In this document: piece after piece, positions 219 through 49,513 of the stretch
Position numbering within the stretch: the stretch's first letter is position 1
Layout of the letters: the number at the start of each line of letters is the position of its first letter
Source of the DNA: a virus
DNA length: 64,000 nt
Strand: one strand, 5' to 3'
Virus record (IMG/VR): IMGVR_UViG_3300032053_000032
Coordinates: 1-64,000 of that record
Notes under the pieces: model-generated
Database searches by the model: none
Told to the model about the DNA's origin: nothing
What the model saw: only the letters and a program-made list of their open reading frames with translations
Position numbers and translations under genes: made by a program

Positions 219-668
219 ATGGGACAGCAAGCGAAGGCCAAGGCGCAAGTTCGCCACATGAAGAAGCTGTTCGGTGGCAAGGAGACAGCCTTCGAGGTTC
301 ACCAGAAATACGGCTTCCGCATGGCGTGCTGCGCTCCGGGAACCAACAAGAACAATAGGTGCGGCGGACCCCCGGTCATTCGCATCCGCGTGTACACGCC
401 GTACCTGGAGCTGTTCTCCAAGCACCCGGAGTTCTGCATCCAGATCGCCGCCGGGAACCGCGATGGTTCCTACGTTCCCACGGTCGACACGAAGTGGGGA
501 CCGATGGTGCTCCTCTCCGACATGACCGCCTGCAAGTTTCACCAGCAGAGCGCCGAGCGCGCCGCCGCCCACCCTCCAAAAGGCCTGCAGACCTGGGTGA
601 CCATCGACCGCGGCCCGACCGCCGAGAAGGTCGTGGGTCAGGTTCCTCTAGTCGGCGTGAGTTCGTAG
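219..668 (+). CDS. Unknown 149-residue protein
   Basis: The ATG at 219 was chosen over an upstream TTG because the protein then begins MGQQAKAKAQ, a typical basic start. No clear Shine-Dalgarno sequence precedes it; TGCCAT lies 9 nt upstream and may be a weak -10 box. The protein has Cys pairs near residues 37-38 (MACCAPG) and a beta-rich middle, but no family was recognised. Its stop is immediately followed by the GTG of the next gene, so the two are co-transcribed. Confidence 0.6.
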   Translation: MGQQAKAKAQVRHMKKLFGGKETAFEVHQKYGFRMACCAPGTNKNNRCGGPPVIRIRVYTPYLELFSKHPEFCIQIAAGNRDGSYVPTVDTKWGPMVLLSDMTACKFHQQSAERAAAHPPKGLQTWVTIDRGPTAEKVVGQVPLVGVSS

Positions 669-1358
669 GTGAGCGCGCAGACCGACCATGAGGCTATCGC
701 GGATGTGATGAACGGTGGCGTGGGTACTCCAACGGATGCGTCACATGCAGAACTAGCACACCATCAGCATGTGCGGATGTATCGCGCTCGCGCTGAGGAA
801 GCAAAACGTCGTGGTGACAAGCCACAGCAAGCTCTGGCGGAACGCCTAGCTGCGGCGCATCACCGCGTTCGCGCCGCGCTTCTTACCAACCCAGGTAGTT
901 TCAGCAAAGCTGACTATAACGCAGCCCATGCCGTTGCGTCGCCAAAATCCCTCATGGGTGCCACTTCCAAAGTAAACATGGTTGATGGTGATCGCCGCGG
1001 GGCCTCGATGAACCTACTGCATCCAGGTCTGCATTCAGAGGCACACTTTGAGAGTGCAAAGGCAGAAGCAGGTGGAAGCCCCGCGCTACATGCGCAGCTT
1101 CGTGATGAGAACATACAGGCCGCAAGAAAGATGGTTGATAGCAACAAACCTGCCGCCGCTGAGCACCTGAAACTCGCCGCCGCTCACGAGAAGCTGCGGC
1201 ATGACGCCGAAGGTCCAGAGCGTCCAGAGCAGAAGTCGCAGGGCGCGAAGTTAAAGCAGCTCGCGTCTTCCAAGAAGAAGGGGGACAGGGAAGCTCCTGG
1301 CAAGATCGCCGCCGGTCGTGAGTACGCACGTGATGACAAGGGGGAGTTTTCGTCGTGA
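669..1358 (+). CDS. His-rich helical protein with RDxxGxFSS tail (paralogue A)
   Basis: This 229-residue protein is almost entirely helical, with repeated His/Ala/Lys heptad-like stretches such as AEHLKLAAAHEKL, and ends RDDKGEFSS. A second protein at 15374-16285 has the same helical style and ends RDAGGKFSS. The codons are visibly richer in A/T than those of neighbouring structural genes. It has a GTG start directly after the upstream stop and a 4-bp GTGA overlap with the HNH gene. The function is unknown; a virion-internal or accessory role is only a guess. Confidence 0.65.
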   Translation: MSAQTDHEAIADVMNGGVGTPTDASHAELAHHQHVRMYRARAEEAKRRGDKPQQALAERLAAAHHRVRAALLTNPGSFSKADYNAAHAVASPKSLMGATSKVNMVDGDRRGASMNLLHPGLHSEAHFESAKAEAGGSPALHAQLRDENIQAARKMVDSNKPAAAEHLKLAAAHEKLRHDAEGPERPEQKSQGAKLKQLASSKKKGDREAPGKIAAGREYARDDKGEFSS

Positions 1359-1810
1359 GCGATCTCCTTGCCAAGCATGTCCGCGCCAAGCGTGAGAAGG
1401 ACGACGACGAGAAGGACGAGCTTCTCTCCGATCAGGAGAAGGGCGCGCGCCAGAAAATCATCGACGGCGCCAAGGAAGCTGGCGCTACCCTCGACCGTCC
1501 TGACGCCCGCGGTGGGCTGCCGCCGTCTCTGGTGCTTGGCGCCTTCCGTCGCGACAAGTTCGCCTGCACCGACTGCGGATCGCAGAAGGACATCGGACCG
1601 CACCACATCGGTGGGATCCCAGACACCAAGAAGAAGTCCCTCGCAGGGCACAAGAACAAGCTGTCGAACATCTCCACGCTCTGCGTGAAGTGCCACGACA
1701 AGGAGCACAACAAGGCTCGCGAGGAGGGGCTTGACTCCAGCCAGGTGCTCCCGAAGGGCGACGTCGGAACCGACCGCGATCACGGTGACAAGCCGGTAGC
1801 ACGGGTCTGA
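1355..1810 (+). CDS. HNH endonuclease
   Basis: This 151-residue protein has a charged N-terminal 50 residues followed by a zinc-HNH domain: CTDC at 71-74, HH at 83-84, an Asn near 105, and CVKCH at 110-114 with a further His at 118. This is the beta-beta-alpha metal HNH layout, which cuts DNA. HNH genes beside head genes often assist terminase in cos or headful packaging, but a free-standing homing-type nuclease cannot be excluded. Translation is coupled to the upstream gene by GTGA. Confidence 0.85.
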   Translation: MSDLLAKHVRAKREKDDDEKDELLSDQEKGARQKIIDGAKEAGATLDRPDARGGLPPSLVLGAFRRDKFACTDCGSQKDIGPHHIGGIPDTKKKSLAGHKNKLSNISTLCVKCHDKEHNKAREEGLDSSQVLPKGDVGTDRDHGDKPVARV

Positions 1811-1826
1811 CGTGATGTCGCTAAAA

Positions 1827-1866
1827 CCCTTCGGGGCCTTCTCGCCGAATCCCGTCGGGTGAGAAG
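1827..1866 (+). other. Two hairpins in the leader of the adenylation-methyltransferase gene
   Basis: The first hairpin is CCC-TTCG-GGG at 1827-1836. The second pairs CTTCTC (1838-1843) with GAGAAG (1861-1866), extended by CCGA/TCGG inside. No T-run follows, so this is not a classical terminator. It could stabilise or regulate the 1896 transcript. Confidence 0.45.
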
Positions 1867-1895
1867 AAGTAGCTGTCCTGCCCAAGCCTAGCGGA

Positions 1896-3980
1896 ATGGT
1901 CGACTTCACTACCTTCGCGCCAGGTGCCCGTATCATGCTCGTGCTGCCCTCCGGTCCAGCTCTAGCCGAGGCGCTACGTGCTTGCTGGGCAAACGGCCTG
2001 GTCGCGATCCCACGCGATCCCAAGAGCAAGCAGAACGTCCAGGTCGCGGAGCACGCGCAGGTCCACGCGCGCGTAGATGTTGACGGAGTTCATCCGAATC
2101 ACGTAGTTCATCCACTCTCGCCGCTCCACGACCGCCTCATCCTTTACACGTCCGGCTCTACAGGAGATCCGAAGGGCGTCGTGCTTACCGAGGCCGCGCT
2201 GAAGTCGAACGCGGTCCAGGTCGCGAACCGTCACGACTTCGCCTCGGGCGCGCACGCTACCTGCTTGTCACTGCATCACTGCAACGCGATCTGCGGGTCG
2301 CTCTACGGAACGATGCTCACGGACTCGCGCCTGATCATCTCGGGCAGCAGCGACATGACCGCGTACTTCTCGGCCATCGAGACGCACCGTGTATGCACCG
2401 CTACCATCGTGCCCGCTCTCCTTGAGAAGCTCCTCGCCTCGCCTCCGCGCTGGCCTTCCCGCCTCAAGTACCTGATCACGGCTGCGGCCCCGCTCACCCG
2501 CGACCTCGCGCGCCGCTTCCGTGATGTCTACGGTGAAGAGCGTCTCGTGCAGGGGTACGGGATGACCGAGGCGGTCAACTTCTCGACCACTATGCCGAAC
2601 CTCGCCGGGAAAGCTTGGTCAGCTGCCTACGTGAACCAGCACCCACCGGTCGGCGCCCCGCTGCCTGGAACCGAGCTGCGCGTGGAAGATGGCGAGGTTC
2701 AGGTGCGCGGCTTGAACTTGATGCGGGAATACTGGCGGAACCCGGAAGCTACAGCGGAAAAGTACACCTCGGACGGATGGTTCAAGACCGGAGACGTCGG
2801 GTTCGTAGGGGATGACGGACTTCTCCGCTTGAGCGGGCGCATCTCGGAGGGGATCAACTGGCGTGGCGCGATGACCTACCCGACAGACTTCGAGGAGTCC
2901 TGGGCGCTCAATTCACCCGGCTGCGCGATATCAGAGCGTGGTGTCTGTGTTCCTGTTGTTGACCCGGACGGACGCGAGCACCCCGCGGTAGTCGGCTGCT
3001 TGACAGCCGTCGCGCTCGGCTTGAACGACCCACCACCGATGGCGATGGACTCCGGTCCCGTGCAGGGGACGTTGACGTTCAAACCTCGCCGCCGCTCGAT
3101 GTCCACGGCCCTTACCTGTCGCTTCGATGATGACGTGCGCTACGAAGCGTTGCGCATTACTGCGTTCGAGGTGTACTCCATGATGGACTACCAGAGCCTA
3201 GACGCTCTCCAGATTTCGTCAGTGCAGGAACGCTGGATCGTAGATCGGGCTCTCGAATTTCGCCAGAAAATGACCGGCGCGCGGCTCGGTGACAAGCGGC
3301 TTGCCAGAATCGGCGGCGCCTGGAACGACGTCTGGAGCGAGGCCCTTCAAGCTCTCGGCACGCAGTGGGGTGCGCACGATGCGGAGCACCCTAAGCGGAT
3401 CATCACCGAGATCCCCAGCCTATGGCGCCGCCTCATGCACGAGTGGCCGATGGGCGTCTACGGTGACCTCGTGGCGGACATCATCGCTCGTCGAGGTCTA
3501 CTTCATGGCCGCGCGCTGGAGTTCGGGACTGGGGTAGGGAACACGTCCGGTCTTCTCAACCGCGCTAAGTTTGACGAGCTGTTCCTCACGGATTTGCAGC
3601 AGAGCACGAAGCGTGGTGTGCGGGCGTGGAACTTCGACTGCGGGGAACCTTATACCGTGGGGCTAGACCTCATATTCGGGACGAACGCCTTGCACTGTTC
3701 CAAGAGCCCCACGAAGGCCCTGCACACCATGTTCACGATGCTCAAGCCAGGAGGGCACCTTGTAATTGGGGAAGGTGAAGCTCACCCGTATCGTGACGAG
3801 CCCTGGGCACTGCACGCGTTCTTCGGCCTCTTCGACGGCTGGTGGGACGTCGGCGGGTTCCTAACGCGCCGCGGATGGGTCGAGCTGCTTGAGCGCACCG
3901 GCTTCGTCGATGTAGGATGGAGCGTGTTCCGTGCCGGCAGGTTTGATCTCGGAGGTGCTCTATGGGCGCGCAGGCCCTAG
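1896..3980 (+). CDS. Adenylate-forming (ANL) enzyme fused to a PKS-type methyltransferase
   Basis: This 694-residue protein has two catalytic parts. Residues ~80-370 form an ANL adenylation domain: P-loop YTSGSTGDPKG (84-94), GYGMTE (220-225), KTGDVG (297-302) and hinge-like SGRISEGINWRG (313-324). The part before the P-loop is short, and no PTGK catalytic lysine motif follows, so the C-terminal lid is missing or strongly diverged. Residues ~535-690 form a SAM methyltransferase: ALEFGTGVGN (540-549), TNALH (596-600), LKPGGHLVI (616-624) and GLFDGWW (644-650), as in polyketide-synthase C-methyltransferases. No carrier-protein DSL motif is convincing. The arrangement recalls NRPS adenylation domains interrupted after motif A8. 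The next gene, a MaoC-like hydratase, overlaps it by 19 bp. The substrate is unknown. The ATG has only a weak GCGGA upstream. Confidence 0.85.
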   Translation: MVDFTTFAPGARIMLVLPSGPALAEALRACWANGLVAIPRDPKSKQNVQVAEHAQVHARVDVDGVHPNHVVHPLSPLHDRLILYTSGSTGDPKGVVLTEAALKSNAVQVANRHDFASGAHATCLSLHHCNAICGSLYGTMLTDSRLIISGSSDMTAYFSAIETHRVCTATIVPALLEKLLASPPRWPSRLKYLITAAAPLTRDLARRFRDVYGEERLVQGYGMTEAVNFSTTMPNLAGKAWSAAYVNQHPPVGAPLPGTELRVEDGEVQVRGLNLMREYWRNPEATAEKYTSDGWFKTGDVGFVGDDGLLRLSGRISEGINWRGAMTYPTDFEESWALNSPGCAISERGVCVPVVDPDGREHPAVVGCLTAVALGLNDPPPMAMDSGPVQGTLTFKPRRRSMSTALTCRFDDDVRYEALRITAFEVYSMMDYQSLDALQISSVQERWIVDRALEFRQKMTGARLGDKRLARIGGAWNDVWSEALQALGTQWGAHDAEHPKRIITEIPSLWRRLMHEWPMGVYGDLVADIIARRGLLHGRALEFGTGVGNTSGLLNRAKFDELFLTDLQQSTKRGVRAWNFDCGEPYTVGLDLIFGTNALHCSKSPTKALHTMFTMLKPGGHLVIGEGEAHPYRDEPWALHAFFGLFDGWWDVGGFLTRRGWVELLERTGFVDVGWSVFRAGRFDLGGALWARRP

Positions 3981-4363
3981 TTGAGGGCGCTCTTCTTGGG
4001 ATGATCAGGATGGACGCCACGGAGGCGCGCATGTTTGCGCTCCTGTACGACCGCAACCCAGTGCATGTTGAAGTCGCCCGCAGGAACGCTATCTTGCCGG
4101 AAGACACGGTGAGCGGTCTGTACGTCGTCGCGAAGGCGCTAGATCTGCTTCAAGTTGCCGCCCCCGATCACACCGCGCGCGTGCTCTGCGCCAGCAAGAT
4201 GTCCGTCCGCTGGCTCGCTCCTGTGATCGGAGATCAGTGGGTTTCGCTCCGTATCGAGACGGTCATCATGGAACGGACGTCCAGAATCTTCCTGCGGCTG
4301 CTGCTCCGCGTTGGTGATGTCCCGGTAGCCGAGATCGACCTTCACCAGATCCTGGCCGTGTAG
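3962..4363 (+). CDS. MaoC-like hotdog-fold hydratase/dehydratase
   Basis: This 133-residue protein carries YDRNPVHVEVA, the hydratase-2 motif (canonical GDxNPxH), with the Asp-x4-His dyad at D30 and H35, the spacing found in PhaJ-type (R)-enoyl-CoA hydratases. The later VRWLAPVIGDQWV matches the second conserved strand (FxxPVxxGD) of MaoC proteins. Its length fits a single hotdog domain that would act as a dimer on an enoyl thioester. The start lies within the end of the adenylation-methyltransferase gene, implying coupled translation and a shared pathway. The GD of the motif is replaced by YD, so activity is inferred. Confidence 0.75.
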   Translation: MGAQALVEGALLGMIRMDATEARMFALLYDRNPVHVEVARRNAILPEDTVSGLYVVAKALDLLQVAAPDHTARVLCASKMSVRWLAPVIGDQWVSLRIETVIMERTSRIFLRLLLRVGDVPVAEIDLHQILAV

Positions 4364-5316
4364 TGGCCCGCCGCGACTACGAAGCCGCCATCGAGGAGCA
4401 CCGGCAGAAGCTTCACCGGATCCTCGACCGTCGTGGCGTAGTACAGATGAAACGGCTGTACCAGGACGCCCACGCCGAGCTAGAGCGGAAGCTCACCGCC
4501 GTAGCTGGTCGCAAGGCGACCATGACCTCGTTTCAGCAGAAGCTGCTACTCCTTCAGGTGAAGCACGGGCAGCAGGACATCTCGAAGCGCATGACCAAGG
4601 GCCTTTCTGCCGCGAGCGCCGATGCTCAGGTCGAGTCGCTCCACTCCCTTACGAAGACCGTCTCCCGCGCGGCCCCGCAGTTCCGTGGGGCGCAGGTTTC
4701 GCTACCTATCGAGGAGGCTGCGAGGTTCCGCGGCATCATCGACAAGCGCCGGACGTCGTTGCTTCAGGCGCACGCCACGTCCATGTCGACACATAGTGCC
4801 CGCGTCGTGAAGAAGATGGAGACGGAGCTGTCCAACTCACTCATGTCCGGTGAGTCGAATGACGAGGCAATCCAGCGCGTAGTTGGAGTAGCCGACGTCG
4901 AGTGGTGGCAGGCCGAGAGAATTGTCAAAACCGAGCTTGCGTGGGCCTACAATTCGACGCAGGCCGACGGTATCGCCGCGAGCGCGGAAGCTGTTCCCGG
5001 ACTCATGATGCGCTGGACTGAGAACTGCGACGATACGTCAAGCGCGCCTCTCGATGACCGTGTCGGCGTAGACTCCATCGCGATGCACGGACAGGTTGCG
5101 AAGCCGAACGGCGGGATGTTCACCTGCCCACCTACTGCGCCCCTCCCCGACGCGAAGGGGCAGACACGCGTGTCGGACTCGCTCTCCGGTGAAAGCTGGG
5201 CGTTTCCCCCCAACCGTCCGAACGATCGTGCTGCGCTCTCCCCTTGGCACCCGGACTGGGGTGTTCCTGGCTGGGTATGGCGTGGAAGACGTGTTCCCGT
5301 CACCTCAGTTCGATGA
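4363..5316 (+). CDS. Mu gpF-like head morphogenesis (minor capsid) protein
   Basis: This 317-residue protein has a long helical N-terminal half, then IVKTELAWAYNSTQADG, the conserved helix of the Mu gpF/SPP1 gp7 family, and a C-terminal region rich in P, W and D ending in a short beta module. Such proteins bind portal or early proheads in a few copies. The GTG start overlaps the upstream TAG by one base. Its place just before scaffold and capsid genes fits this role. The intervening metabolic cassette is unusual for this position. Confidence 0.8.
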   Translation: MARRDYEAAIEEHRQKLHRILDRRGVVQMKRLYQDAHAELERKLTAVAGRKATMTSFQQKLLLLQVKHGQQDISKRMTKGLSAASADAQVESLHSLTKTVSRAAPQFRGAQVSLPIEEAARFRGIIDKRRTSLLQAHATSMSTHSARVVKKMETELSNSLMSGESNDEAIQRVVGVADVEWWQAERIVKTELAWAYNSTQADGIAASAEAVPGLMMRWTENCDDTSSAPLDDRVGVDSIAMHGQVAKPNGGMFTCPPTAPLPDAKGQTRVSDSLSGESWAFPPNRPNDRAALSPWHPDWGVPGWVWRGRRVPVTSVR

Positions 5317-48122: not shown

Positions 48123-48521
48123 CTAGTCCTCCCTGGTGTAGTCGATCGCGTTGTAGTGACTGGCGACGCCGTCGAGCCAGTCTCCCGTCGGAATCTCGAT
48201 GTTGCTCCACTTCCGATCGTGGCTCATCACGTACCCGAGGACGGTGGAGCCGTCCAGCAGGTGAATCAACTGACGGTGGTACAGGCTAGGAGCACCTTCC
48301 AGGCGATCGAGGCGCGCCAGGGTCTTGTCGTCCACCTGGTAGACTTCCCCGACGATGGGCACCCCGCGCCACGTCCAGGTGATGCAAGGGTACCCACCGA
48401 GGTGCCACATCTGCCAGGTGGGCTCCGTGCGCGCGTGACGCAAGAAGGTAGCGCCGGCCAGGTGGTAGTGGTTTCCCTGACCAGAGCGGAGCGTGCCGTA
48501 CACAAAGACTTCGGTGAGCAT
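48123..48521 (-). CDS. Gamma-glutamylcyclotransferase-fold protein, copy 2
   Basis: This 132-residue protein starts VFVYGTLRSGQGN, the AIG2/GGCT substrate loop, and has LDRLEGAPSLYHR with the catalytic Glu (E75). It is the short AIG2-like form and lies directly behind the amidoligase; such pairs are known in phages and were proposed to form and cut isopeptide-type bonds on proteins or small molecules. Confidence 0.85.
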   Translation of the reverse strand: MLTEVFVYGTLRSGQGNHYHLAGATFLRHARTEPTWQMWHLGGYPCITWTWRGVPIVGEVYQVDDKTLARLDRLEGAPSLYHRQLIHLLDGSTVLGYVMSHDRKWSNIEIPTGDWLDGVASHYNAIDYTRED

Positions 48522-48544
48522 CGCGATCTCCTGTCTTGGGCGGG

Positions 48545-49513
48545 TTAGCTGTTGTCGTCCGACGAGGCGGCCGCGATGACCGCTGCGGTGGCAAGCTGGA
48601 AGGACACGGAACCGCTGGAGGCCGCAGTGGCGACGGGCGCCGCGGTAAAGGCCGCCATCAGGTGGGTGCGCACGGTGCTGAACTCCTCACCCTTGCTGAA
48701 GCCGAGCTTGCTGACCAGGTACGTCATGCCCGCGCGGTCCGCCGTGATGGGCGTCGAGAGGGGGATGGAGGTCTTCCAGGTCTTGCAGCGAGCGACCATC
48801 GCGAGGCAGAGCTGGATGTACGCCTTGACTTTGCCAGCGTGAAGGGTCGAGTTGAAGAGGCGGAACTCCACGGTGCCCTTGGTCCAGACCGCGTGAAGGT
48901 TCAGGGCCTGGTAGCGGCTGCCATCGTAGTGCGTGGGGTAGTTCTCGACACGGCCGTACCAGGCGCGTGAGAGGCCGCGCGAATCCTTGGCGATGGTAGC
49001 GCGCTCCGAAGCAGGAGCGCGGCGCAGACGCTCGCAGAGGGTCTTGCCAAGCTTCTTGCAGTACTGTTCGCGACGGGGAAGGACCGCGAGCGACGTGAAG
49101 AGCAGATCCTGGTAGTAGTGCATGAGCGACGCGAGGTTGATGGTGTTCTGCGCCGTGAGCGACTCGGCGCCGACATGGACGTGGATGCCACACGACTCGT
49201 CAACCTGCGCGCCGCAAGCGCGAACGGCGCGAACAACCGCCTGAACCGTGTCGAGGTCGCTGTACACGAGGATGGGCGAGACGACTTCCGCGCCACCGTT
49301 ACAGGGAAGCGACCCGTCGCGCATCGACTTCCAGACGCGCCCGTCGGTGGCAGTAACGATCCAGGTATCGTAGCTATCGTGCGTGTGGGTGACGACGCCA
49401 CCGACGACCGACTGAACGGCCTCTGCAACAACCTGGCGGCTCTTGCCGAACGTTTCGACTTCGAGGCCAAAGCGGAAAGACTTCATCGACTCGGTCTGGT
49501 TCGCGGTGGTCAT
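48545..49513 (-). CDS. Amidoligase-family COOH-NH2 ligase
   Basis: This 322-residue protein has the Amidoligase_2 motifs: GLEVETFG (16-23), SCGIHVHVG (107-115), LNLHAVW (204-210), TKGTVEFRLF (211-220), and a helical C-terminus. The fold is that of the glutamine-synthetase-like ligases, which use ATP to join a carboxylate to an amine. The ATG follows TATAGT by 7 nt without a ribosome-binding site. It starts the accessory operon containing the GGCT genes. Confidence 0.9.
   Translation of the reverse strand: MTTANQTESMKSFRFGLEVETFGKSRQVVAEAVQSVVGGVVTHTHDSYDTWIVTATDGRVWKSMRDGSLPCNGGAEVVSPILVYSDLDTVQAVVRAVRACGAQVDESCGIHVHVGAESLTAQNTINLASLMHYYQDLLFTSLAVLPRREQYCKKLGKTLCERLRRAPASERATIAKDSRGLSRAWYGRVENYPTHYDGSRYQALNLHAVWTKGTVEFRLFNSTLHAGKVKAYIQLCLAMVARCKTWKTSIPLSTPITADRAGMTYLVSKLGFSKGEEFSTVRTHLMAAFTAAPVATAASSGSVSFQLATAAVIAAASSDDNS

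Follow-up and report, generated by a model that had tools for sequence, protein, structure and literature searches.

The window, a stretch of 64,000 nucleotides from a virus record of 85,027 bases (G000), encodes among its head genes a 694-residue protein in which an ANL adenylating domain is joined to a C-methyltransferase of polyketide synthase (PKS) type, followed by a MaoC-like protein. Judged by its sequence, the fusion represents a genuine, conserved, phage-borne family common to several phage lineages. In our preferred reading, to which we give a probability of about 0.55, the two genes would form a phage-borne accessory module for the activation of an acid, its transfer to CoA or a host carrier, C-alpha methylation and MaoC-like hydration or dehydration. 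The main features of the locus are as follows (window coordinates).

1355..1810, + strand: HNH endonuclease gene, bounding the cargo site on the left
1896..3980, + strand: fusion of an ANL adenylating domain and a PKS-type C-methyltransferase, 694 residues (Pfam, PDB sequence matches, AlphaFold, Foldseek)
2145..2177, + strand: ANL A3/P-loop motif YTSGSTGDPKG, residues 84–94
3069..3092, + strand: A10-like lysine motif TLTFKPRR, residues 392–399, with K396 (alignment)
3468..3977, + strand: predicted PKS-type C-methyltransferase core, residues 525–694, with the SAM motif EFGTGVGN, H600, E626, FGLFDGWW and the DLGG tail
3951..3955, + strand: GGAGG within the last part of the fusion gene, resembling a ribosome-binding site for the MaoC-like gene (by eye)
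3962..4363, + strand: putative MaoC/hotdog-type hydratase-like protein, 133 residues (Pfam match below cut-off; positional relative in contigs L228/L229; D30-x4-H35)
4363..5316, + strand: gene for a Mu gpF-like minor head protein, bounding the cargo site on the right

Domains of the fusion and its MaoC-like partner

Both open reading frames lie, with their 19-bp overlap, where the earlier note had placed them, and the six motifs that it quoted for the fusion are all present (at residues 84, 220, 297, 540, 616 and 644). Its central proposal, an ANL domain fused to a PKS-type C-methyltransferase, is borne out by Pfam, by motifs and by sequence matches in the PDB. The Pfam AMP-binding profile matches residues 70–280 (E = 7.8e-42), and the predicted domain shows the features of the ANL superfamily, namely the P-loop, the A5 Glu (E225), the A7 Asp (D300), the A8 Arg (R315) and the A10 lysine. 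This lysine, which the note had considered missing together with its lid motif, is K396 in T392-x-T394-x-K396-P-x-R399, and was overlooked because the motif reads TLTFKPRR. The motif aligns with the canonical TSTGKPQR of a Pseudonocardia homologue, other homologues having TQTKKPQR; the A10 glycine is replaced by Phe in the window's fusion, and T392, T394, K396, P397 and R399 are invariant in five aligned full-length proteins (three from phages and two from Streptomycetaceae). Used on its own, the ANL lid (residues 343–433) gives no Pfam or NCBIfam match. The N terminus of the fusion is not short for the family, several relatives starting at about the same point. The closest solved relatives of the ANL domain are acyl- and aryl-CoA ligases, and since its A4 region aligns with such ligases and not with amino-acid A domains, the suggested substrate is a carboxylic acid that lacks an alpha-amino group.

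The methyltransferase domain matches Pfam Methyltransf_23 over residues 527–671 (E = 4.8e-9), and its best PDB sequence matches are the C-methyltransferase domains of CurJ, LovB, DisA, PsoF and the citrinin PKS. Its plasmid matches (13 of 13) fall within long genes whose names are of the PKS, NRPS, beta-ketoacyl synthase, SDR-family or thioester-reductase kind. The SAM-motif residues, N597, H600, E626 and GWW are invariant in the methyltransferase alignment, and the spacing from His to Glu is 26 in all three phage proteins checked. PKS C-methyltransferases use a catalytic His–Glu dyad (PMC9821293), which we infer to be H600/E626 in the fusion. A predicted class I SAM core with a His–Glu pair and FGLxxGWW gives the domain the features of a PKS-type C-methyltransferase.

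The AlphaFold model of the fusion, computed from a mixed alignment, has a pLDDT of about 90 over residues 1–310 of the ANL part and mostly of 70–97 in the methyltransferase core. The lid is poorly predicted, and its model is not counted as evidence because the alignment placed some methyltransferase fragments badly. In agreement with the domain identities first proposed from motifs, the top Foldseek matches are proteins with adenylation and methyltransferase-like domains, the NRPS proteins PchE (7emy) and TioS A-M-A (5wmm); acyl-CoA ligases come next (E about 1e-24), and the amide synthetase McbA is also among the matches. None of the 50 matches listed from a viral structure library covers both domains well, the best being ANL-only proteins and separate methyltransferases.

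In the downstream protein, the Asp-x4-His dyad described by the earlier note is present as D30-x4-H35 and, with the following catalytic Gly in VSG, corresponds to the hydratase 2 motif of (R)-hydratases (PMC3823801). The protein is called MaoC-like here, and not a family member, because its score against the Pfam MaoC_dehydratas profile (E = 1.7e-5, 24.8 bits) is below the curated cut-off of 27. A single-sequence search against phages, plasmids and viral contigs returned only one weak archaeal match, and the AlphaFold model obtained from the single sequence (pLDDT 45) is too poor for a fold search. A relative of 123 residues (E = 4e-8) was found in L228/L229 through the neighbourhood of the fusion; its gene lies directly 3′ of the fusion gene and overlaps the end of it. 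This relative has a DPNPEH motif, shares VSG with the window's protein and gives no match to the MaoC profile.

A variable cargo site among the head genes

The head-module setting described in the earlier note is genuine, HNH, minor head protein, scaffold and major head protein genes being found around the cassette, with a 1-bp overlap between the MaoC-like and gpF-like genes. Some 80 viral loci contain a related major head protein (42–67% identity to that of the window), and many of them keep the order from HNH to gpF, with a gap that ranges from about 36 bp to 2.7 kb; both flanks are conserved in relatives without the ANL cassette. The HNH–gpF junction (window 1811–4362; the same junction in L007–L086) is a cargo site of variable content. 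Within the gap or close to it, relatives have a D12 DNA methyltransferase, a DRAT-like ADP-ribosyltransferase, further HNH genes or a DUF192 protein, and one has a collagen-like protein there, in a record where no HNH gene was detected. An AMP-binding gene occurs in none of 55 relatives' records, many of them fragments. The location had been presented as unexpected for such enzymes; the cassette is really there, and its position is less surprising because the junction is a variable cargo site. At the same locus, L008:770-3106 encodes a 778-residue gpF homologue with a long C-terminal extension without family assignment. Among the structural genes (window 5352–39804 and the portal region) there is also an AstE/AspA-type (succinylglutamate desuccinylase/aspartoacylase) catalytic domain (E = 4.1e-5).

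The closest full-length relatives of the fusion by identity are bacterial, as would be the case if the cassette were an assembly chimera or host contamination. This explanation is largely refuted and extremely improbable: the record is continuous through the 19-bp and 1-bp gene overlaps, the GC content of the cassette matches its surroundings, the phage flanks are conserved on both sides and the fusion recurs in other viral contigs. The codon usage of the fusion gene (rank 8 of 58, in the lower 15% of genes) is slightly atypical and within the phage range. A contig join or contamination was ruled out on GC, codon usage and the conserved flanks.

The ribosome-binding site of the fusion gene itself looks weak, and a search for a sigma-70-type promoter found none. 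Since both genes are co-directional with the structural gene block in which they lie, late expression is likely, and the product of the cassette would serve progeny or late-infection chemistry, not early takeover. The 85-kb record has no tyrosine integrase, and a temperate lifestyle is still compatible with it. One end of the record has a portal gene (80726–82348) and a HAD-like gene running off the end, the other end being window 219–668. In L010, a continuous stretch (portal, HAD-like, a homologue of 201–668, HNH and gpF) has the gene order found across the two ends of G000, which may thus represent a nearly complete genome in circularly permuted form.

Relatives in phages and bacteria

A scan with a methyltransferase alignment identified full-length fusions in the viral contigs L174 and L175–L177 (32–33% identity over about residues 9–693), and a later scan added those of L228/L229, 29% identical to the window's, and L230, a fragment at a contig end. 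L230 goes with L174 and L175–L177, and L228/L229 form a second group. In L174 the fusion adjoins long-tail-fibre genes. The two genes together, for which the earlier note had proposed a search of viral metagenomes, recur in L228/L229, contigs of an apparently unrelated phage lineage, and the arrangement is therefore not private to the window's phage. Confinement of the pair to bacterial clusters at a contig join, which the note had considered as a possible outcome, is at odds with the presence of the fusion in other phage contigs and of the MaoC-like gene downstream of it in L228/L229. In the records of the phage relatives, which are partial, nothing related to the major head protein of the window was found. 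ANL genes from a GenBank phage set were set aside, none of them covering 80% of the query and several coming from records named as bacteria.

The two genes could also be recently captured host genes with no phage role, that is, hitchhiking and possibly inactive cargo. The variable cargo site, the 55 relatives' records without an ANL gene, the codon usage rank of the fusion and its variant A10 motif are all consistent with this idea. It is nonetheless improbable, given that the catalytic residues of both domains are kept at about 32% identity in several phage proteins and that the MaoC-like partner has kept its position in L228/L229.

In bacteria, matches occur in 17 of 299 genomes of the Pseudonocardiaceae, the family of Actinophytocola (E ≤ 1e-45), and in 3 of 299 genomes of the Streptomyces family (E ≤ 1e-42), whereas a sample of 397 Actinomycetota and 399 Pseudomonadota genomes, with about two candidates scored per genome, gave none. 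Two of the Streptomycetaceae relatives are full length, with identities of 42% and 44% (E = 1.6e-134 and 3e-125) and intact methyltransferase motifs. In the Pseudonocardiaceae copies the methyltransferase core is mostly eroded or gone and the C-terminal DLGG tail is kept, so that methylation cannot be a requirement throughout the family; the fusion thus offers an evolutionary series, intact in phages and some Streptomycetaceae and eroded in Pseudonocardiaceae. Three Pseudonocardiaceae copies (L204:8997-10946, L205:8719-10677 and L206:2778-4727) have an open frame without P-loop, A10 lysine and SAM motif, and in L204 and L206 a cupin gene follows, forming a pseudo-enzyme pair.

Relatives in the Pseudonocardiaceae often lie beside NRPS/PKS genes, and the neighbours of bacterial relatives comprise NRPS genes, MbtH-like proteins, cupins and type I PKS genes. 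The presence of homologues in such clusters, of antibiotic type, in soil actinobacteria suggests that the fusion is borrowed natural-product chemistry. Neither the surroundings of the Streptomycetaceae relatives nor the other bacterial loci examined yielded a MaoC-like homologue. An uncharacterised small cluster of Streptomycetaceae (L219:8400-15276) consists of class II aaRS-like, ANL-methyltransferase, cupin, aldehyde dehydrogenase and ATP-grasp ligase genes. In the trees, the window's fusion lies closer to actinobacterial sequences than the L174/L176 pair, a placement of weak to moderate support. Grouping the phage sequences in one clade gives a p-AU of 0.049, a borderline rejection on trees with long branches, and both single and repeated acquisition by phages are compatible with these results.

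Putative function and comparison with known systems

The earlier note had seen no carrier protein, and indeed a search of the 85-kb record with the PF00550 profile finds nothing up to E = 10; no carrier is found in three relatives' records either. An acyl carrier protein (ACP) hidden between the domains (DYQSLDALQISSVQERW, about residues 431–447) was rejected, this segment being unconserved in relatives and giving no PF00550 match. In the preferred reading, the ANL domain would adenylate a carboxylic acid, in the manner of an acyl/aryl-acid ligase rather than on an alpha-amino acid, and the activated acyl group would pass to CoA or a host carrier protein, a step proposed because the phage record encodes no carrier. 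The C-methyltransferase would methylate C-alpha of the resulting thioester, which for its PKS relatives is a beta-ketoacyl chain, and the MaoC-like protein would hydrate or dehydrate the same acyl thioester.

Alternatively, the acyl group would go directly to an amine or hydroxyl, as in the amide synthetase McbA, with the methyltransferase decorating substrate or product, no thioester carrier and another role for the MaoC-like protein. The lack of a carrier in this record and the three relatives' records, the structural match to McbA and a Streptomycetaceae locus in which ATP-grasp and aaRS-like genes are neighbours agree with such amide or ester formation. However, the methyltransferase is most like PKS C-methyltransferases, which act on carrier-bound chains, MaoC enzymes work on acyl thioesters, and host CoA and ACP are always at hand, making this route unlikely, if worth keeping in view.

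A phage cupin gene adjoins the fusion in L174, L230 and L228/L229, and the same cupin is present in this genome outside the window (coordinates of G000):

73600-74316 (= L005:10604-11317), − strand: phage cupin, 38–41% identity to those of L228 and L174
72758-73597 and 71565-72761: PP-loop/PAPS-reductase-type genes beside the cupin

ParB-like genes lie on either side of this locus (71–75 kb). The gene order in L228 is ParB-like, cupin, fusion, MaoC-like, IbrA-like and IbrB-like, whereas here it is ParB-like, cupin, PP-loop, IbrA-like and IbrB-like, and thus the fusion pair sits elsewhere in this genome. At least 459 viral stretches contain the cupin family, in most cases with PP-loop ATPases alongside; among the 80 best loci, 50 have an IbrA-like neighbour and 24 another PP-loop-type protein. 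Since the fusion is nearby in only one of these 80 loci, that of the L174 record, the cupin of this genome may be independent of the fusion, and a functional link between the two is suggestive, not proven. Our guess is that in several phages the module may serve the cupin and PP-loop-ATPase locus, which is also present in this genome. More tentatively, there could be an unrecognised phage system in which a small molecule or a phage macromolecule is produced or altered by this locus, and in which, in a subset of phages, the fusion, with the MaoC-like or another partner, would attach a methylated acyl group that had been formed on host carriers.

The window also contains amidoligase and GGACT (gamma-glutamyl cyclotransferase-like) genes (48126–49513, − strand), and in L228/L229 relatives of both, together with a glutamine amidotransferase, lie beside the fusion cassette. 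If the activated and methylated acyl group were attached to phage nucleotides, DNA or a virion protein, one could account for the pairing of the fusion with cupin and PP-loop ATPases in several phages, for these amidoligase and GGACT genes and for a cassette within the structural gene block. Such modification is nevertheless quite unlikely, as no enzyme that would transfer the group to DNA or protein was identified and most cupin/PP-loop loci lack the fusion.

Natural-product-type acyl chemistry is unexpected among phage head genes, and it seems that some phages use a part of it. With the fusion in several phage lineages, accompanied by the MaoC-like gene in two, and in Streptomycetaceae, one can put forward, in testable form, the idea that phages divert the acyl metabolism of the host to chemistry of their own, and the cupin, the ANL–C-methyltransferase and the MaoC-like protein make a tractable three-enzyme set for biochemical discovery. 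A limited literature search found no report of a phage ANL–C-methyltransferase fusion and nothing relevant on phage NRPS/PKS-type enzymes. IbrA/IbrB are reportedly mentioned in phage papers, and phage biosynthetic genes and IbrA/IbrB loci resemble the present case as metabolic cargo in tailed phages.

Among bacterial proteins, the class I adenylate-forming enzyme of plasmid pLS2-1 of Pseudonocardia sp. HH130630-07 (WP_068800937) shares 49% identity in the ANL domain (residues 12–336), the TxTGKPQR lysine motif and the C-terminal DLGGxxW tail. It differs in its length (547 residues) and in the deletion of the methyltransferase core, and a cupin, a type I PKS, a LuxC-type reductase and a P450 are encoded near it. 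The ANL-methyltransferase proteins of Streptomycetaceae (genomes G1179 and G1332) are homologous over their whole length with both domains intact; the first of these bacterial copies adjoins cupin, ALDH, ATP-grasp and aaRS-like genes, the second a 258-residue gene without family assignment.

The interrupted A domains of NRPSs (TioS A-M-A, 5wmm; PchE, 7emy) likewise combine adenylation and methyltransferase in one chain. In PchE a methyltransferase-like domain is inserted within the A domain, as is the methyltransferase of TioS A-M-A, whereas that of the window follows the A10-like lysine, with nothing after it and no PCP. An A-M-A architecture was rejected, as K396 precedes the methyltransferase (residues 525–694) and no lid follows it; a thiotemplated NRPS/PKS assembly line was also rejected, the system having no carrier protein domain of its own. 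With the C-methyltransferase domains of PKSs (CurJ, the citrinin PKS and PsoF), the fusion shares the SAM motif, the NxxH...E pair and FGLxxGWW, in a comparison of motifs made with plasmid PKS C-methyltransferases, the stand-alone AmxMT1 being likened without alignment. Unlike these domains, it has a shortened N-terminal part and lies behind an ANL domain, with no ACP or KS. Most likely, the ANL–C-methyltransferase family, undescribed within the literature searched, represents known chemistry, acid activation and C-alpha methylation in polyketide/NRPS style, in an unexpected place.
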